Shown: positions 18,345-43,297 of the stretch, one piece after another
Position numbering within the stretch: position 1 is the stretch's first letter
How the letters are laid out: each line of letters starts with the position of its first letter
Assembly: GCA_021201395.1 (NCBI GenBank)
Contig: JAJQFB010000090.1
Coordinates: forward strand, 1-43,418
DNA length: 43,418 nucleotides
Reading direction: 5' to 3'
Origin: Clostridiales bacterium
Lineage (GTDB): Bacteria > Bacillota > Clostridia > Lachnospirales > CAG-274
Position numbers and translations under genes: made by a program
The notes under the pieces: model-generated
What the model saw: the letters and a program-made list of their open reading frames with translations, nothing else
What the model was told of the DNA's origin: nothing
The model's database searches: none

Positions 18345-19727
18345 TTGCTGTACTACATAATTATTATACTGATGGTTATACTCAGGTTCCTGATTAAAAC
18401 CGTCTCTTCATCTATAAGCTTTTTGGAAGTCGGAAGGCTTGCTTACGATATAGAGGACGAAAAAATAAGGAAAAAAGTTGAGGTCTATAAAAATAAGGGC
18501 AGCTTCTATATTTCAGCCGCCAGTCTTATGAGTGTTATTATACTTCTCTTTTCGGGTATAATGACCTATGCCAATGTTATAAGTATATTCAGAACCTATC
18601 CGGAAATATTTTATACGGCAGGCACCCCCGGCACGGGAATTGCCCCTGCGGGCTATATTGCCTTTTTGGTTATTATAGTTATTCTTGCCTTTATATTCGC
18701 TCTTTTCAGCGGTACAATCCCCAGAAACATAGCCATTAAAAACCCCATATGGTATATTATTACTTTCGGTATCGTTTTAAAGGTTGCGTCCGTTCTGCTC
18801 TGTCCCCTTGTTAAAATAATATATAATATAAGCTTAAAGCTTTCAAAATATGACTTAGACCCGGACGATTTTGAAATAGAGGAGGATACTCAGGACGAAA
18901 TTCAGCAGCTTCTTACAACCGGCGAGGAAACGGGAACCATAGACGAAAACGAAAGGGAAATGATTGAAAATGTTTTCGCTATGGACGACACCGCGGCGGA
19001 GGATATTTTTACCCACAGAAAGGAAATTGTGGCTCTGCCCATAAGCTGTACCCTTGAGGATATTAAGAAAGTTATACTCTATAAAAAATATACGAGAATC
19101 CCCGTTTACGAGGATAATATAGACAACATTATAGGAATACTCAATACCAAAGAGTTTATGAGATATTATCTCAAAAGGACTCCCCGTTCGAAGTTTAATT
19201 TAAAGCGTCTTTTAAAGCCTACTTTTTTCGTTCCCACCAACAAAAAGATAGATGAAATTTTTGAACAGATGCAGGAGGAGAAGATTCACCTTGCGGTTGT
19301 GGTTGACGAATACGGCGGAACCTTAGGTATTGTCACAATGGAGGACATTGTGGAGGAAGTTATGGGGGACATTTTAGACGAATACGACGTAGACGAAATT
19401 CCCGACATAGACAAAAACTCCGACGGAACCTTTACAATAGACGGAACAGCCCTTTTGGAGGATGTTTCAGACGAGCTTGAAATCGAAGAGTTCGATGAGG
19501 AGGACGTTGACACCATAGGGGGCTATATGATAGCCCAAATGGGTTATATCCCCGAGGACGACGCCGAAAAGTTCAGTGTTGAATATGGCGGCTGGCTTTT
19601 TGAAACCGAAAAAATAGAGGGCAAAAGAATTGTATCAATAAAAGCGTCAAAAATATTGAGCAGGCCGGATAATCGCACCGATTCAGGTGAGGAAAGTCCG
19701 GGCTCCGCAGAGCAGGATGCCGGATAA
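18345..19727 (+). CDS. CNNM/CorC-HlyC family membrane protein with CBS pair
   Basis: 460 aa from a TTG with AGGAGG at 18331-18336. Residues 1-160: DUF21 domain with four hydrophobic segments (about 2-18, 54-76, 103-126, 135-158). A Q-E-E-x-L-like acidic linker (DEIQQLLTTGEETGTID) leads to a CBS pair (about 220-340; FTHRKEIVALP, VVDEYGGTLGIVTMEDIVEE) and a CorC_HlyC transporter-associated domain (about 355-440; DGTFTIDGTALLEDV, TIGGYMIAQMG). The family takes part in magnesium or other cation export. The last 25 residues are encoded by the 5' part of the RNase P RNA gene, so this C terminus (SRPDNRTDSGEESPG...) is unlikely to be under protein selection. Confidence 0.9.
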   Translation: MLYYIIIILMVILRFLIKTVSSSISFLEVGRLAYDIEDEKIRKKVEVYKNKGSFYISAASLMSVIILLFSGIMTYANVISIFRTYPEIFYTAGTPGTGIAPAGYIAFLVIIVILAFIFALFSGTIPRNIAIKNPIWYIITFGIVLKVASVLLCPLVKIIYNISLKLSKYDLDPDDFEIEEDTQDEIQQLLTTGEETGTIDENEREMIENVFAMDDTAAEDIFTHRKEIVALPISCTLEDIKKVILYKKYTRIPVYEDNIDNIIGILNTKEFMRYYLKRTPRSKFNLKRLLKPTFFVPTNKKIDEIFEQMQEEKIHLAVVVDEYGGTLGIVTMEDIVEEVMGDILDEYDVDEIPDIDKNSDGTFTIDGTALLEDVSDELEIEEFDEEDVDTIGGYMIAQMGYIPEDDAEKFSVEYGGWLFETEKIEGKRIVSIKASKILSRPDNRTDSGEESPGSAEQDAG

Positions 19728-20019
19728 TGTCCGGTGGAGGCGACTCTAAGGAAAGTGCAACAGAAATAAACCGCCTTTTTAAAAAGGTAAGGGTGGAAAG
19801 GTAAGGTAAGAGCTTACCGCTTTTTCGGCAACGAAAGAGGCTCTGTAAACCCCATTCGGAGCAAGATCGAAAAGAAACAGAGGGCTTTTGCCTAAGGCAG
19901 GGCTCTCAGGGGCTGCTCGTCCCGTTTCAGGTACAGATCGCTTTAGTTTATCGGTGACGATAATTCAAGACAGATGATTGTCCAAGACAGAACCCGGCTT
20001 ACAGACCTGCTCAATATTT
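19651..20019 (+). ncRNA. rnpB: RNase P RNA (class A)
   Basis: Catalytic RNA that cuts 5' leaders from pre-tRNAs. Conserved blocks: GAGGAAAGTCCGGGCTCC, GGTAAGGGTGGAAAGGT, GGTAAGAGCTTACCGC, AAACCCCATTCGGAGCAAG and ACAGAACCCGGCTTACAGACC. Helix P1 is a perfect 14-bp pairing of AAATATTGAGCAGG (19651-19664) with CCTGCTCAATATTT (20006-20019). It overlaps the 3' end of the upstream coding region by about 77 nt on the same strand, so it must be processed from, or independently initiated inside, that gene. Confidence 0.96.
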
Positions 20020-35075: not shown

Positions 35076-35128
35076 AAAAAAACCGAGCCCCTTATGATTC
35101 GTATGAACCGTATCGGGGCCGTTTTTTT
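35076..35128. terminator. Bidirectional terminator between permease and heme operon
   Basis: A-rich tract, ACCGAGCCCC, 23-nt loop, CGGGGCCG and a seven-T run. The GCCCC/GGGGC core is paired and there are T runs on both strands, placed between two convergent genes. Confidence 0.7.
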
Positions 35129-35888
35129 ATACCGTTATTACAAAGCGTCTGTTGTTAAATTTTTCTATGGCAAGCTCAAGGCCGTAAGTTTCCTTTATTG
35201 TTTCCGTTGTTATAACCTCTTTCGGCTCGCCGTATTTTATGATTCTGCCCTCTTTCATAGCCACAATTCTGTCGCTGTAATAGGCGGCCTGATTTATGTC
35301 GTGGAGAACCATTATTATTGTTATGTGATATTCCCTGTTGAGTCTTTTAATAAGGCGGAGAGTTTCAATCTGGTGTTTAATGTCAAGATAGGTTGTCATT
35401 TCGTCCAAAAGTAGGATTTTGGTGTTCTGGGCCAAGGCCATAGCTATCCATACTCTCTGGCGTTCGCCGCCGGAAAGGTTTGCTATTCTCTTTTTGCGGA
35501 ATTTCTCTATTCCCGTAGCCTCAAGGGCAAAATTTATACACCTTTCGTCCTCGTTGCGGTCTCTTTTTAAGCCGTTTGCGTGGGCAATTCTGCCGTAGCT
35601 TATAAGCTTTTCCACCTTTAAATCTCCCGGGGCTGTGTTATGCTGGTGAACAATGGCAAGCTCCCTTGCGAAGCGTTTTAAGGGAATTTTGTCTATATCC
35701 TCCCCGTTAAGAGTTATAATACCCTTTTGGGGCTTTAAATTTTTGGACATTACATTAAATAAGGTGGATTTTCCTCAGCCGTTTGCCCCTATTATGGTTG
35801 TTATTTTGTCCCTTTCCACCTTAAAGGAGATATCGTTAAGCACCTTTCTTGTGTTGTCGTATCCGAAATCAACGCCTTTAATTTCCAT
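35127..35888 (-). pseudogene. Heme/iron ABC transporter ATPase with TGA in Walker A
   Basis: FecE/HtsC-type ATPase that would power heme import. ATG 35888 overlaps the permease end by 11 bp. The frame gives MEIKGVDFGYDN and TTIIGANG, then TGA at codon 38 (35775-35777), then GKSTLFNVMSKN and the rest intact: Q-loop VHQHNT, signature NLSGGERQR, Walker B ILLLDEM, switch His in VLHDINQA. The family has Cys, Ser or another residue at the TGA site (GANGxGKST). Translation restarting downstream would lack Walker A and be inactive. About 253 codons in all. Confidence 0.88.
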
Positions 35889-36865
35889 AGGTCTTATCAC
35901 TCCTTTTAAGAAGAATAATAAAGAAGGGTCCGCCTGCGACAGCCATAATTACCGCCGGGGAAATTTCGTAGGGGTAGGCTATGAGCCGCCCCACAGTATC
36001 CGCAAGAAGCATTGTAAAGGCACCCAAAAGGGCTGAAAAGGGAATTAAAAGCCTGTGTTCGCTTCCCACGAGGATTCTGCCCATATGGGGAACAATAAGC
36101 CCCACAAAGCTGACAGCTCCGGCTACGGCTGTTGTTATGGAGGCCAAAAGCACAGCCACCACCGACACAACAAGCCTTAAAGCTGTTACGTTTACGCCAA
36201 GACTTCTGACGGTTTTGTCCTCAAGGGACAACAGATTGCACCTGCCGGCAATAACAAGAGCCAAAACAAGACCTATAATAACATATATGGCAAGAAGCCT
36301 TACGTCCGACCATGTTTTCATAGATATGTTTGCCTCTATAAGCTCCGAAGCACTTGTATAGCTTTGACCGCTCATAGAATTAAAGGCACTTGAAAGACCC
36401 GAAAAAACAGCGTCTATAGCCACGCCCACAAGAATAATTCTAAGGGGCGAAAAGCCGTTTTTATAGGAAAGGCTGTAAACAAGAACGCAGGCCGCCATAC
36501 CGCCCATAAATGAAAACACGGGGGTAAAGAAGAAAAGCGTGGGAAAATAGGCTACTATAAGGGCGCTGACGAAGCTTGCGCCGGAGGATATACCTATTAT
36601 GCCCGGGTCCGCAAGGGGGTTTTTCAAAACCGCCTGAAAAAGAACGCCGCTGACCGCCAAAGCCGCCCCTGCAAGCATAGCTATTATAATTCTGGGGAAT
36701 CTTAAGTCGTAAATTATAGCCACAGTATCGTCATAGGCCACAAAAAGCCCTCTGAAAAAGCTGACCGTAGCTGACTTTAAGGCTTCCCGAATTGACGGAA
36801 AATATAAACAGCCCCCAAAGCAAAACAATAATTACAACAAAGCTTATAATTTTTTTACCCTTCAT
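35878..36865 (-). pseudogene. FecCD-type heme permease with one-base frameshift
   Basis: Membrane subunit of the heme transporter. The true start is ATG 36865, two bases after the lipoprotein stop. The first frame (MKGKKIISFVVIIVLLWGLF...SLKVSYGQLF) is the first membrane helix, then it leaves frame in a run of five T (plus-strand A at 36755-36759) and stops at TGA. Removing one T joins it to RGLFVAYDDTVAIIYDLRFPRI and the remaining eight or so helices, including PLADPGIIGISSGASF and AGAVSFVGLIVPH, the classic FecCD loops. Otherwise full length (about 328 aa). Confidence 0.88.
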
Positions 36866-36867
36866 AA

Positions 36868-37962
36868 TCAGTCACCGTAAAGCATTGGCTCTAAAGCCGC
36901 CAAAGCCTGAGGATAGTCAAAGGTTGCGCTCATACCGAAAAGCATATAGTCAACGTCGTAAACCTTTCCTTCCGAAACGGCTCTGAAATGCTTCCATATA
37001 TCGTTTTCGGAAAATTCCTTTTCAGACATTTCAAGAGCCTCTTTAGGCAGACCGTGGGCCGTTCTTATAATAACGTCAGGGTCTCTCGCAAGCATTTCCT
37101 CAGGGCCGATTGTAAGAAAGTCCTTTTCCTCGTCACTGAAAACGTTTACTCCCCCTGCTAATTCCACAAGAGAGCCTGCGTAGGAGTTGCCCGTCGCCAC
37201 AAGATAGCTTCCCGGCAGACCCATAAGAACCAAAACCTTGGGGGCTTCCCCTGTGTGCTTGCTTGAATAGCTTGACATAAATTCGTTATATTCGGCCACT
37301 ATAGCCGCCGCTTCCTCCGACTTTCCGTATTTGTCCCCTATGAGCTGAACGCTGTCATAGAGACCCTTTACGGAGCGGAGATTTAAGAAGGTATAGTTTA
37401 CGCCCATGTTCTCATACTGAACCTTAAGGTCTGTTTCGAGAGTGTCGGGGCTTAAAACGTCTGTGGGGTTTAAGCTCTTTATAATTTCAACGTCGGGAGA
37501 CATAGGAGAGCCAACAGTTGTAACTCCGTTATAGCGTGAAGCTATGGCCGTTACGGTGGTTTCGGGAACGCCTACAAGGCTTAAACCCAGTCTGTCTGTA
37601 ATATCGCAGATAGAGGCCGAGGTCGCTATTATTCTCGTACCCTCAGGGGCAGTGGTTTCCGCGGGCTTATCTGCGTTTGCTGCGGCTTGGCTGTTGGCCT
37701 GCTTTTCTCCGCTTTCCGCTTTCGCCATTATGTCGGAATCAACCTCTTCTCCCGATGAACCCGAGGCCGTTGTTTCCTCCGCCTCTGCTTCAGTGCTTTC
37801 CGTTTCGCCATCAAGGGTTTCGTCCTCCGAAGCCTTGTCATCTTCCGCTTCCGTTGTTTCCTCTGTTTCACTTTCGGGGGCGTTTTTGGAGCTTGAAGCA
37901 CAGCCCGCAAAGAGAGCTATAGCTAAAACAACAAGTGTCAGTAAAAATAATTTCTTTTTCAA
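36868..37962 (-). CDS. isdE: Heme-binding lipoprotein of ABC importer (IsdE/HtsA-like)
   Basis: 364 aa, type III solute-binding fold. Lipobox ALFAGC with Cys21, then an 85-residue Glu/Thr/Ala-rich spacer. From residue 109 it follows staphylococcal IsdE closely: IIATSASICDITDRLGL, VGSPMSPDVEIIKSLNPTDV, VLVLMGLPGSYLVATGNSY, FSENDIWKHFRAV and LFGMSATFDY. The two axial heme ligands known for IsdE/HtsA, Met and His, align with Met154 (MSPD) and His303 (AHGLP). It receives heme at the outer membrane face and passes it to the permease. Twelve bp after the Shp-like gene. Confidence 0.92.
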   Translation of the reverse strand: MKKKLFLLTLVVLAIALFAGCASSSKNAPESETEETTEAEDDKASEDETLDGETESTEAEAEETTASGSSGEEVDSDIMAKAESGEKQANSQAAANADKPAETTAPEGTRIIATSASICDITDRLGLSLVGVPETTVTAIASRYNGVTTVGSPMSPDVEIIKSLNPTDVLSPDTLETDLKVQYENMGVNYTFLNLRSVKGLYDSVQLIGDKYGKSEEAAAIVAEYNEFMSSYSSKHTGEAPKVLVLMGLPGSYLVATGNSYAGSLVELAGGVNVFSDEEKDFLTIGPEEMLARDPDVIIRTAHGLPKEALEMSEKEFSENDIWKHFRAVSEGKVYDVDYMLFGMSATFDYPQALAALEPMLYGD

Positions 37963-37974
37963 GCCCTCTCCCCC

Positions 37975-39087
37975 TTAATTTCCGTAATATTCCGTATAGT
38001 TGCAGAGCATAGAAGCTACGTCCGCCCTCGTTGCGCTTGAGGTATAGTCATAGCCGTTTGTGTTCTGCTTTGTTATTATGCCGGCCTTTCCTGCCGAAAC
38101 AACGCTTTCCTCAGCCCATGAGCTTACGCCTGTTGTACCGGGGGAAATGCTCTTTGTTTCAAAGCTGACACCCTTATAAGCCGCATATTTTACGAGAATA
38201 ACCGCCGCCTGTTCACAAGTAACCGCCGTGTCGGGGCTGAAAAGGCCGTTTCCCGTTCCGTTTACTATGCCGTTTGCGTTAGCCCAGGCTATATAGGGGG
38301 CGTAGTACATAGAATTGTCAACGTCCGTAAATTCCGCCGTGCCGGAGATTTCCTCGCCGCTCATTCTGCCTAAAACAGTAACGAACATACCTCTTGTCAT
38401 ACTGTTCTCGGGGCTGAATGTGTCGGCTGAGGTTCCGCTGAAAAGACCTGAGTCAACAGCTTTTATAATTTCGCTTTCCGCCCAGTGGCCGTCAATATCC
38501 GTAAAGGCCGCCGCTGCACTGTCGTTTGTTTCCTCTGTTTCTTCTGCTTCCGCCTCTGTCTGTGTGTCCTCTGCTTCTGTTTCGTCAAGGCTTGTGCCTG
38601 AAACGGCTGTTGACATATCACAGTTCATATAGAAGCAGACGTCTCTGCCCATAGGAGCAACATACATTGTTATTCTTATATAGCTGTCCCCTGCCGGGGC
38701 AGAAAACCTAAGGTCTGCGCTGTCTGTTGAGGAGCTTTCCTTTATAACATTATATGAAACGTCCGAATAGCTTCCTCCCGGCTCGTCCTGTACGGCAAGC
38801 CTTATGTCGGATAAATTGCTGTAAAGGAGCATACGCATTGTTATAATAACTCCCTCATCTGTTTCTTCTATAACGGCCTTTTCATAAACCGCACTTCTGC
38901 ACATTCCCTCGCCTAACTCTGCATTTGCTGTTCCGCCGTCGTCTGTCTCCCCTGTGTCGGGGTTTAAATAACTCGTCACCGTGTCGGCCACATAGCTTTC
39001 CGCCCCTAAGGCAGTCACGCCGAAAATTCCCAAAACAAGGCTTAAGGCCGTTGCCGCCGCTATAATTCTTTTCGATAAATTCTTCAT
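37975..39087 (-). CDS. SLH-anchored Shp-like heme-binding surface protein
   Basis: 370 aa. Signal peptide 1-29. Residues 35-165 resemble the streptococcal Shp heme-binding domain: YLNPDTGETDDGGT, GEGMCRSAVYEKA, SNLSDIRLAVQ and MYVAPMGRDVCFYMN. Shp binds heme through two methionines; Met62 and Met146 lie in the matching segments. An acidic linker is followed by three SLH repeats (about 196-368; AFTDIDGHWAESEI, FTDVDNSMYYAPYIAWA, GVSSWAEESV) that tether it to the cell wall polymer. Position between receptor and IsdE-like lipoprotein supports a heme-relay role. The Shp assignment is from motif memory, not a search. Confidence 0.75.
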   Translation of the reverse strand: MKNLSKRIIAAATALSLVLGIFGVTALGAESYVADTVTSYLNPDTGETDDGGTANAELGEGMCRSAVYEKAVIEETDEGVIITMRMLLYSNLSDIRLAVQDEPGGSYSDVSYNVIKESSSTDSADLRFSAPAGDSYIRITMYVAPMGRDVCFYMNCDMSTAVSGTSLDETEAEDTQTEAEAEETEETNDSAAAAFTDIDGHWAESEIIKAVDSGLFSGTSADTFSPENSMTRGMFVTVLGRMSGEEISGTAEFTDVDNSMYYAPYIAWANANGIVNGTGNGLFSPDTAVTCEQAAVILVKYAAYKGVSFETKSISPGTTGVSSWAEESVVSAGKAGIITKQNTNGYDYTSSATRADVASMLCNYTEYYGN

Positions 39088-39164: not shown

Positions 39165-42100
39165 TTAAGCCTCAGCTTCTTCTGTGTCGGTTTCAGCCTC
39201 TTCTTCGGTTTCTTCCTCGGAATTCTCTTCTTCGGAAGTCTCTTCTTCATCGCTTTCGGAAGCCTCGGCTTCTTCCTCATCGTCCTCCGCTGTTCCTGCT
39301 GCTTCGGCTGCCGCTTCTTCTAAGGCTTCAAGCTTTTCGGGCATATATTCGCCTGTAAAGTTTACAAGCACAGTGGCAATCTCGGCTCTTGTGGCTGTTC
39401 CCTTGGGGTCAAAGCCGCCGTCGGTTCTGCCGTTTATAACGCCTGCCGCCGCAAGTCTGTCTACGCCGTCCTTAGCCCGGCTTCCTATATTGGCTTCGTC
39501 GTTAAATGAGGGCTTGTAAACCGTCTTAAATTCAACTCCCATACTGTCTGCAAGTCTCGTGATTATAGCCGCCATCTGCTCTCTCGTTATATTTTCATAG
39601 GGAGCAAACTCGGTTTCGCTCATACCTGCTACAACGCCGTTGTTATAAGCCCAAACAACATAGGGGTAGAAGTAGTCGTCGCTGTTTACATCCTCAAAGC
39701 CCGTTTCGCCGGATGTTGTTTCACTAACGTCCATAAGTCTGCCTAAAACAGTTACAAACATAGCTCTTGTGGCTGAAACGTTGGGACCGAACTGTGTATC
39801 GGTCATTCCGTTAAACAAGCCGAGTTCAAGGGCTTTAATAATGCTTTCTTCCGCCCAGTGGCCTGAAATGTCCTCAAAGCCCATAATGGAAATAACTTCA
39901 TCAGCCGCTTCTTCAAGGTCTATTTCTTCGACAACTTCTTCTGCCGTTTCGCCTGTTACGGCTATGGCAAAAAGCCCGAATTCCTTTACGGCAATTACAT
40001 AATAGGCCTTGTCGTCGGAAAGAGTATATTCAATCTCAGTCTTTGAGCCGTCATCGTTTATTCTGTAAATAGTGACGTCCTTGCCCTTTGTATCGCCTAC
40101 GGGGAAATAAACCGTAGCCGTTCCCGAAGGCTCTACCTCAACGGAGCCTAAAACCGCCTTTATGCTGTAAAGTATAAAGCTTGCTGCCTCATCGCCTAAG
40201 GCCGTCTCTGTGTTGTCGTAAGACTCGCCCTCGGTTATGATCTCAATCTCAAATTCCGTTCCGTCGTCGAATACATATTCGTCTGCATAAATCTTAACAC
40301 ACGTATCTGTATTCGTAGAGCTTACGGAGCTTCCGCCGGAACTTGAGCTTCCCGATTTAACCGTGGAATCCTGTGTCAGGGTTGCGTCGCTGTCGGCTTC
40401 TGTCATACCCGAGAAGTTAAGCTTAAGCCTTGCTGCAATCCAGCCGCCGGTATTTTCTGTTATACCGTCCATAGGCGTATAGGGTACGCTGATTTCAACG
40501 TCTGCATATTCTGTAGTCAGGTCTGAGATTTCAAATGAAAACATTGTTACGTATGTAAAGGTATGCTCTGAGCCGTCATATTTGGTGTTTGTTGTAAATT
40601 TGTCGGTAGAGAGATAGCTTATTGAAACCTCATCGCTCTGAATGCCCTGTAAAGTTGAGGTGTATCCGCTTACGGAAACGGGGTTTGTAGCAACCTGAAC
40701 GGTGGCTGTTCCTCCGCTTACTGTTACAAGGGCTTCCCTGTTGTTTGCAAAGGCTGCGTCTCCCATAGAAGCCTGGTCAAGGTTTGCGTTCCAGAGATAA
40801 ATATCCATCCAATACTTGCCGTCTGCAATATCGTCGTCATCATCGCCGCTGCTGCTTGATGAAACCGCCGTAAATCTTATGTCGGCGGAGCTTACTGCCG
40901 AAGAAACACCGTCCTTAATCGCCACAGCATATACCGTTATTGTTTCGCTTGAGCCCGTTACGGTAAATTCGCCGCTGTAGGCATTGGAGCTTTCAGAGGG
41001 AACAGAACCGTCTGTTGTGTAGTAAATTGCCGCTCCGTCCTCAGCCGTAATCGTTACGGTTACCGTCTGATTGTTCTTGGGAGATGAATCGGAAAGTGTA
41101 ATTACAGGCGAGTCTGTTTCTTCCTCGTCGTCTGCGTCCTCGATAATTACTGCGTTTGCCCAGTCAAACTCAAGTCTTGCGGCCTGATCGAAGCCTTCCA
41201 TAGCGTCTGAGCTTATGCGGATGTAAATAACGTCCTCCTGTTCCGAATCCCTGCTCATTCTGAAAATTCTCGGAAATTCGGAAGTGGTTTCGTCGCCGCT
41301 TGTGTAGTTAAGACCGTAGTCTGTGAAATATTCAACTATATCAGCGGAAATTTCATATTCAGAATCATTCCACCAGTCATAATTCATTTCGCCGGCCTCG
41401 GGATAACTCCAAAGCTTTATTAAATGTCCGTAAAGACCGGCATAATATACAGCCTTAACCGTAAGCTCAACTGTACTTGAACCATTCTTAACCGTAACTA
41501 TGGCGTTGCCGTCAAGAGCGGCGTTGCCCATAGACTCGGAGCCTTGATTTACCTCGCTCATCATAACGACGGGAACGCTGTATACAACAGCCTCGGAATC
41601 ATCTTCAACCGCCGTCAGTGTGTCAACGTCTATGGCAAGCCTTACAATGTGGGTCATTGTTCCCACAGGCGTGTTTACAACAAGCCGAACATTTTCTATA
41701 TCGTCAACGTTTTCAAGCTCTACGGTTACATAATAATAGCCGTCCTCATCGGTTGATACTTCAAGGACTTCATAGGTTTCGCCGTCAAGTGCCTGAGAAA
41801 TATCCCCTATCATTGAATTTGTGTAGGCAAGCTTTACATAAGCCTTGCCGTCGGAAACAGTGATAGGAACATCTGTTGTTGTAAAGTAGTTTCCTGCACT
41901 TGAGGTTTCGTCCGAATCCTCCTTGAGGATAGAGATGTCTGCCGTATACTCGCCGTCATCAGCCTCTGTTACGTTTGTATCGTCATCGTCATCATCATCG
42001 CTGTTGTCATCGTCGCCGTCGTCAACCGCAAGAGAAAGAGCTGAAAGAACAGCTTCAACGATTGCGTCCGAGGAATGTGTTGCTCCGCTGACCCCGTCTA

Positions 42101-42929
42101 CAGCGTAAATCGCCGCTGCGTCCGTTGCCGAAAGACCCACAAGCTACTCGGAAAGCCCCTCAGCAGCCGATTCAAGCTTTGACTGTGAGGTCGTGTTTCC
42201 TGCCTCGCCCTCAACACTGACTGCGGTTATAACATCGTCCGCAACTGTCACCGTAACGGTAACATCATAGCCGAAAACAGCCACAGCAGCCGTGCCCGTG
42301 TAGGTGGTTTCGGTTGTTTCGCCGTCGTCAGTGTCATCGCTGCTGTCGTTTGCATAGTCAAAGGCCAAATAAGCATTTGTCGACATATCCATAACGGCAA
42401 TGTACATATTTACATATACTCCGTCATAGCTGTTATCCGGCAGGTCAAACTCGATTTCCGATATGTTTCCGTCGGAATTTTCCGTTCCGTCCGCTGCAAC
42501 AATGTCGCCCGAAGCCGAAGTCCCCTGATAAATTACCCAGTCGGAAGCCCAGCCCGTTATCGTACCCACGGTTACAGAGGTAAGCTCAATCTTAACCCTT
42601 GCCGTGCCGTCGTCGCTTACAATAAGCTGACCGCCCACAATACGGCTTGCCGCCATAGAGTCGTTCGCCGTGTTGCTCACGTTTTTAAGGGAAACGCCTA
42701 TGTCATAGGTTCCCGGTGCATAAGCAACACCGCTTGAGCCGAAAGAATATTCTGTTTCGTCCGCAAGCTCCGCAGAGACTGTCTCCGTTAAGGAAAGAGC
42801 ACTGTCGGAAGTCGCCGCTTCTTCAATATTTTCGGCCTTATCATTCGTTTCGGCCCATGCCCCTACGCTTAAGCAGGACGCCGCCATAACGGCGGAAAGT
42901 GCAGCCGAAAGAATCCTTTTAAACTTCAT
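39165..42929 (-). pseudogene. SLH-anchored multi-NEAT, FMN-binding surface receptor, interrupted by TAG
   Basis: Predicted heme receptor of 1254 codons from ATG 42929 (GGAGG upstream). Signal peptide 1-26; NEAT-like 1 (72-193); FMN-binding domain (about 210-305) with acceptor motif DGVSGAT (Thr284); acidic linker; NEAT-like 2 (323-438), 3 (449-593) and 4 (701-843); a chitobiase-type beta domain (607-688; AIYYTTDGSVPS); an unassigned beta domain (875-995); three SLH repeats (1017-1193); a Glu-rich tail. NEAT 1, 3 and 4 carry SMxxxA and a late Met (VMDM, DAMEG, TPMDG). Codon 262 is TAG (42144-42146) inside the FMN domain; frame and homology continue after it. Without suppression only NEAT 1 is secreted. 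Confidence 0.8.
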
Positions 42930-43005: not shown

Positions 43006-43019
43006 TTAGTTTAGGCTAA
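43006..43019. promoter_or_regulatory. DtxR/IdeR-like iron box 1
   Basis: TTAG-N6-CTAA core. The 19-mer starting at 43006 matches the IdeR/DtxR consensus TTAGGTTAGGCTAACCTAA at 16 of 19 positions. It lies about 80 bp upstream of the receptor ATG. Confidence 0.65.
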
Positions 43020-43072
43020 CTCAAATCCGAAAAAAATTACTGCCGCATACTTTAAAACCTGTAAATTATCAG

Positions 43073-43086
43073 TTAGTCAAGCCTAA
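43073..43086. promoter_or_regulatory. DtxR/IdeR-like iron box 2
   Basis: TTAGTCAAGCCTAA, same TTAG-N6-CTAA core, 13 of 19 to the IdeR/DtxR consensus. A TTGACT on the minus strand (43075-43080), a possible -35, lies within it. Confidence 0.55.
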
Positions 43087-43283
43087 CCAATTTCAAATTG
43101 CTCCCTTTATAAATATAAGGATCAATCTGCCCTCAAAGCTTTTGTTTGGGTTGAACCGTTCCTTAAGGTTAAATATATAATTATTAAAGGAGAACAACTT
43201 TAAGCCCGTCATACAGGTTAAAAAGCCTGTCGGCAGTAAAATGTTTTCAAGTCCGCCAAATTATCAGTCTCAGCTAACTTAAA

Positions 43284-43297
43284 TTAGCATTAGCTAA
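43284..43297. promoter_or_regulatory. DtxR/IdeR-like iron box 3
   Basis: TTAGCATTAGCTAA, same core, 13 of 19 to the consensus, with another GCTAA/TTAG pair at 43273-43287. It lies at or just after the expected start point of the minus-strand promoter at 43309-43337, a position suited to repression. Confidence 0.55.

Follow-up and report, generated by a model that had tools for sequence, protein, structure and literature searches.

Receptors built from NEAT domains are regarded as passive carriers that move heme by affinity, and the locus described here raises the question of what a flavin-binding domain would do inside such a protein. The DNA analysed, referred to below as the window, is a stretch of 43,418 nucleotides from a Clostridiales genome (contig JAJQFB010000090.1). 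A first-pass annotation had placed an FMN_bind domain between the first two NEAT domains of a heme receptor encoded there, and had proposed that surface electrons passing through it could reduce heme iron or help to strip heme from host proteins.

Domain architecture of the receptor

The receptor gene (39165..42929, minus strand) comprises 1254 codons if an internal TAG is read through. Read in this way, it encodes, in order, a signal peptide-like N-terminus (residues 1–26, 42852..42929, read from the sequence), NEAT domain A (about residues 61–195, 42345..42749), an FMN_bind domain (PF04205, residues 220–298, 42036..42272) that the TAG interrupts, NEAT domain B (residues 322–437, 41619..41966), NEAT domain C (about residues 457–586, 41172..41561), a chitobiase/hexosaminidase C-terminal-like domain (residues 620–681, 40887..41072), NEAT domain D (residues 700–840, 40410..40832, approximate, with boundaries set by eye), and three SLH repeats for cell-wall anchoring (39333..39878), all on the minus strand. 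Pfam detects NEAT (PF05031) in three stretches of the read-through protein (E 1.3e-18) and by itself misses NEAT A, whose NEAT fold is seen via the structural model described below, with the IsdH N2 domain as its match (Z 9.6); the closest counterparts of NEAT B are NEAT domains of Bacillus hemophores (IsdX1, Z 11.7, for the modelled domain), and NEAT C is related to NEAT2 of Shr. The protein is one of a family of heme receptors at the cell surface in which SLH-anchored NEAT arrays contain one or two FMN_bind domains.

Evidence for the FMN_bind domain

The profile search that the first-pass annotation had suggested bears out its domain call: PF04205 scored 38.9 bits (E 2.6e-9) in a six-frame search of the genome, with one TAG counted within the match, and 32.1 bits (E 1.8e-7) in the whole read-through protein, against a curated cut-off of 22, and the match depends on reading through the TAG. 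The flavinylation motif DGVSGAT (42078..42098, minus strand) runs from Asp278 to Thr284, the acceptor residue, which had been named correctly if the read-through numbering is used; it agrees with the published ApbE motif, D-x-x-[ST]-G-A-[ST] (PMC12052999). A seven-residue motif of this kind alone turns up in 4% of protein shuffles, and it is the profile score, the fold match and the conservation that exclude a chance occurrence of the domain.

The fold was examined in an AlphaFold2 model of NEAT A–FMN–NEAT B, built from the read-through sequence with relatives as the alignment. Across the FMN part, where pLDDT is about 75, the predicted order of elements is beta-beta-beta-alpha-alpha-alpha, with the motif just ahead of the last helix. 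Its best match among solved structures is domain 2 of SaFMN3 (8p2a; Z 11.9, rmsd 2.2, 88 of 89 residues aligned), in whose crystal FMN is bound to a Thr (PMC10339131), followed by domain 1 of CbFMN4 (Z 9.8; 8p2b also matches). The pTM of the model (0.37) makes the placement of its domains unreliable, and the relative positions of the FMN and heme sites were not used; a model of FMN2 with the module that follows it (A6) was poor (pLDDT 43), and no geometry was drawn from it. Judged by the read-through sequence, its predicted fold and intact relatives, on which its membership rests, the FMN_bind domain in this NEAT receptor is real.

Stop codons in the receptor and ATPase genes

The position, profile and fold of the domain thus stand as first proposed, but the frame is not open as had been assumed, an in-frame TAG at codon 262 (42144..42146, minus strand) having been overlooked. 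The stop lies between the beta part of FMN_bind and the SGAT motif. The actual first open reading frame (42144–42929) encodes 261 amino acids with no Pfam match, and the second (39165–42140) encodes 991 amino acids from a GTG, has no signal peptide, and keeps only FMN_bind positions 52–76, the last third of the domain; since the TAG falls inside the domain, neither frame encodes the whole of it. In four relatives, this codon specifies an amino acid, Lys in G001, G002 and G004 and Ala in G003. The operon contains a second stop as well, an in-frame TGA (35775–35777, minus strand) inside the Walker A motif of the ABC ATPase, where relatives carry Cys.

Recoding was considered for both stops and rejected. 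A changed code that reads TAG as a residue is at odds with the sense codons of the relatives, and a scan of the whole window for open reading frames with TAG read as Gln found no other case in which a TAG joined the parts of a real gene into a long open frame. As for a selenocysteine reading of the ATPase TGA, the genome gave no match to SelA, and Rfam showed neither a SECIS element nor any other match at the site.

Selection bears on the age of the interruption. Relative to G002 and G004, dN/dS is 0.14 before the stop and 0.15–0.17 after it, and the Shp-like gene downstream has 0.15; the FMN domain is itself under purifying selection (about 0.17). With relatives intact and selection after the stop not relaxed, either the stops arose recently or they are errors of the metagenome-assembled genome, and the allele here is either recently inactivated or misassembled. 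We regard as evenly balanced the view that it is a dead allele in a decaying heme operon, with receptor and importer both nonfunctional: two stops in one operon, the scarcity, in the 352 kb of this genome scanned, of further long frames that a single stop divides with no restart close by, and the failure to find SelA, which leaves no selenocysteine reading of the TGA, point that way, but dN/dS is the same on both sides of the stop, the Shp-like gene is intact and constrained, and the consensus of such a genome may contain errors. The equal dN/dS and the constrained Shp-like gene would make any decay very recent. Errors in the metagenome assembly, or the collapse of near-identical repeats, might instead account both for the stop and for an array as short as one FMN and four NEAT domains; the genome is in 138 contigs, the NEAT B repeats of same-genus relatives are near-identical and form longer arrays, and another genome of the genus has frame breaks and runs of N in the same gene. 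This origin is quite possible, if on the doubtful side, as the TAG lies in a unique part outside any B repeat and the second stop in a single-copy ATPase. Either account is compatible with the functional readings of the family given below. Unless the stop is an assembly error, Thr284 is probably neither displayed nor flavinylated in this organism, the TAG breaking the frame inside the domain.

Relatives and spread of the fusion

Intact counterparts are found in other genomes. A same-genus relative (G002) encodes an intact protein of 2081 amino acids with seven NEAT and two FMN_bind domains (motifs DGVTSAT in the first and DAVSGAT in the second), a further genome (G045) one of 2778 amino acids with five NEAT and one FMN_bind domain (EAVTGAT), and a third (G052) one of 972 amino acids (DMVSSAT). 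The fusion of NEAT A and FMN_bind occurs in 7 of the 48 genomes of the family (G000–G004, G045 and G052). A sample of the class (391 genomes) added one genome with the NEAT–FMN order, in which the gene itself is split (G255), and one with FMN plus NEAT (G354); in the family of the latter, full-length matches to the FMN module were seen in 4 of 299 genomes, and in three of them (G354, G699 and G476) the matching protein also has NEAT domains recognised by Pfam, with Shp-like, periplasmic-binding and FecCD genes adjoining the fusion gene of G699. A phylum-wide sample searched with A4 gave matches only in the present genome, and NEAT receptors are mostly without a canonical FMN_bind domain, as is the case in the related genomes G009 and G016. 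The survey of such fusions that the first-pass annotation had envisaged therefore finds them rare but recurrent, in at least three families. Among ten FMN domains of nine proteins from three families, the acceptor Thr is invariant; Gly is replaced by Ser in three copies (G002 domain 1, G052 and G255) and Asp by Glu in one (G045).

Two paralogues, one in the present genome (contig C55, L043:5093-6631) and one at L044:2690-4297, carry NEAT A, after it an FMN_bind-like stretch, and then copper amine oxidase N-terminal domains; most of the receptor is missing from them, and the flavinylation motif is lost. In most relatives, a beta-rich module with conserved HSL and VP(A/T)M stretches follows FMN_bind (second half of L036:7948-8757, minus strand; equivalents in L120, L121, L128 and L129). 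Neither Pfam nor the PDB gave it a convincing match, a PDB profile search with A4 returning weak, unconvincing ones, and it is possibly a NEAT-like heme site.

ApbE and candidate electron donors

The genome contains one copy of apbE (282 bits), a gene whose presence the first-pass annotation had named as a check, and of the 11 further genomes that carry the fusion, 10 also encode ApbE. In G255, the apbE gene lies immediately next to the NEAT–FMN gene and is transcribed divergently from it. Rnf genes, RnfG included, are also present in the genome. RnfG is likewise a substrate of ApbE, so the presence of ApbE alone says little. No membrane electron donor is encoded near the receptor, and searches of the genome for Ferric_reduct and DUF4405 found neither; to name Rnf, the quinone pool or a small FMN lipoprotein (L003) as the donor is guesswork.

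Met ligation usually gives heme a high potential, and if the heme of the receptor has a potential as high as that, a flavin at −184 mV would be low enough to reduce it. This value is the midpoint potential of an FMN_bind protein of the same type (PMC10339131).

Heme operon and candidate heme ligands

The receptor heads a heme operon, all on the minus strand, in which it is followed by a Shp-like heme-binding protein with SLH repeats (37975..39087; HemeBinding_Shp, E 2.1e-42), the heme ABC transporter lipoprotein IsdE (36868..37962; TIGR03659, 343.9 bits against an equivalog cut-off of 298.65), a FecCD-type permease (35878..36828) and the interrupted ABC ATPase (35127..35888). The same heme-import partners stand beside the receptor in relatives. 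Elsewhere in the window, a bacterial RNase P RNA of class A was identified at 19657–20017 on the plus strand (Rfam RF00010, 291 bits).

Aligned to Shr NEAT2 (9w5y), the sequence of NEAT C keeps both Met ligand positions (Met467 and Met577). In each of the four NEAT domains of the receptor, the lip helix contains a Met, as does the late hairpin region (Met722 and Met820 in NEAT D); the second Met of NEAT A is not conserved in all copies, and we therefore claim the ligand pair for NEAT C only. The Met ligands of Shr tolerate both Fe(II) and Fe(III) heme (PMC12796733). By eye, YxxxY, the Tyr ligand motif of Isd proteins, is absent from every NEAT domain of the receptor translation.

Upstream of the receptor, three TTAGN6CTAA boxes (at 43006, 43073 and 43284, spanning 43006..43297) form a candidate operator and are the only copies in the 43-kb window. 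In relatives, three copies of the palindrome GTTAGN6CTAAC, which has the same core, lie between a regulator gene and the receptor (L120 4401-4627; L121 10004-10257; L041 7628-7822), and either the NEAT regulator or an iron repressor of the DtxR type is a candidate to bind these boxes as its operator. The NEAT regulators, encoded beside the receptor operons of relatives (L041:7855-8694, L120:3515-4342, L121:10397-11257, L040:7168-8028 and L129:5979-6815), are fusions of two halves, the one a winged-helix part like DtxR/MntR or MarR and the other a NEAT domain in which the lip Met is conserved; the PDB profile matches are MntR, SloR and IdeR for the former half and IsdX2, IsdX1 and Shr for the latter. 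The fusion could possibly be a cytosolic heme-sensing repressor, and it was not found in the genome that carries the window. A 2014 survey of NEAT proteins reported no cytosolic members (PMC4143258). Pairs of fused permease-ATPase ABC transporters resembling CydDC adjoin the NEAT regulators (L121:11644-15031 and L129:7629-11035, with one of the pair in L120:1535-3265), and two transporters similar in kind are described for the cht locus of C. perfringens (PMC5026354).

Proposed function of the tethered flavin

For intact members of the family, we consider it a real possibility, falling a little short of an even chance, that the conserved Thr carries FMN and that this FMN passes electrons to heme on the neighbouring NEAT domains. 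ApbE would link FMN to the Thr outside the membrane, and the flavin would act as a tethered electron carrier, reducing heme that the neighbouring NEAT domains hold or are offered; one of them at least has the Met ligand pair of Shr, a pair that tolerates ferrous heme. Reduction might then ease the extraction of heme from ferric heme proteins, or its relay to the Shp-like protein and the IsdE–FecCD–ATPase importer. The Shr-type Met ligand residues of a neighbouring NEAT domain and the setting in a heme operon give circumstantial support to the proposal that FMN reduces heme iron or strips heme, and a flow of electrons from the flavin to heme on NEAT domains is plausible. In the present genome, the chain would be cut by the TAG in FMN_bind and the TGA in the ATPase. 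Shr and Shp transfer ferric heme without reduction, which counts against the need for such a step. We hold it somewhat unlikely that a class of Clostridia receptors performs reductive heme capture, in which covalent FMN at the surface would reduce the iron of Met-liganded NEAT heme and so drive its release from host or dietary heme proteins and its hand-over to the importer.

Electrons leaving the flavin could also serve ends other than heme uptake, passing, possibly with NEAT hemes as extra redox centres, to free Fe(III), quinones or organic acceptors, in the manner of PplA or of multi-flavinylated proteins. FMN_bind proteins usually serve extracytosolic electron transfer (PMC8238504, PMC11334425), and the presence of two FMN_bind and seven NEAT matches in the G002 chain would suit such a role; yet the gene stands with an IsdE equivalog, a Shp-like gene and FecCD both here and in relatives, and no Ferric_reduct or DUF4405 electron exporter was found in the genome; we consider this use of the flavin unlikely. 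More improbable again is that FMN_bind, a small alpha-beta module, acts to keep NEAT domains apart or to set their orientation, as the linker of IsdB and IsdH does, with the flavin incidental or absent. The NEAT–FMN–NEAT order does resemble the NEAT–linker–NEAT order of IsdB, which is the top Foldseek match, though only because the NEAT domains match, and the loss of the motif in both paralogues and the Gly-to-Ser changes in three copies would fit a spacer; but Asp or Glu and the acceptor Thr are kept in 10 of 10 receptor copies, whereas a spacer needs no invariant Thr, and an ApbE gene adjoins the fusion in G255. If electron transfer from FMN to NEAT-bound heme does occur, a flavin tethered in the NEAT chain would add a redox step to heme capture, and heme uptake in anaerobes would join free iron and respiration, the processes to which protein flavinylation has been tied so far.

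Comparison with known systems

The combination of NEAT and FMN domains has been noted before, in that the legend of Table S1 of the 2014 survey lists FMN among the additional features of NEAT proteins; the main-text passages that our search found discuss no function (PMC4143258). Surveys of flavinylation connect it with iron uptake, and a search of them for NEAT gave nothing (PMC8238504, PMC11334425); a review of NEAT proteins does not mention flavin (PMC7815599), and our literature search found no paper that treats NEAT domains together with FMN-binding domains.

A close parallel is the Shr–Shp–HtsABC system of Streptococcus pyogenes, which likewise joins a surface multi-NEAT receptor, a Shp-like protein and an ABC importer, and whose Shr NEAT2 is the relative of NEAT C with which the two Met ligands appear to be shared. 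Unlike Shr, the receptor described here has FMN_bind and SLH repeats and is carried by anaerobic Clostridia, and a general Pfam scan gave no match in it to the hemoglobin-interacting domains of Shr. With the Isd system (IsdB, IsdH and IsdE) and the Bacillus proteins IsdX1 and IsdX2, the locus has in common its NEAT domains, the IsdE lipoprotein and the structural closeness of NEAT B to IsdX1, but the receptor is without YxxxY and has a flavin domain in the place that a helical linker takes in IsdB and IsdH. Its likeness to SaFMN3 and CbFMN4 lies in the fold and in the D-x-x-[ST]-G-A-T motif; whereas those proteins consist of FMN domains only, the flavin domain here is fused to heme-binding NEAT domains and encoded in a heme operon.
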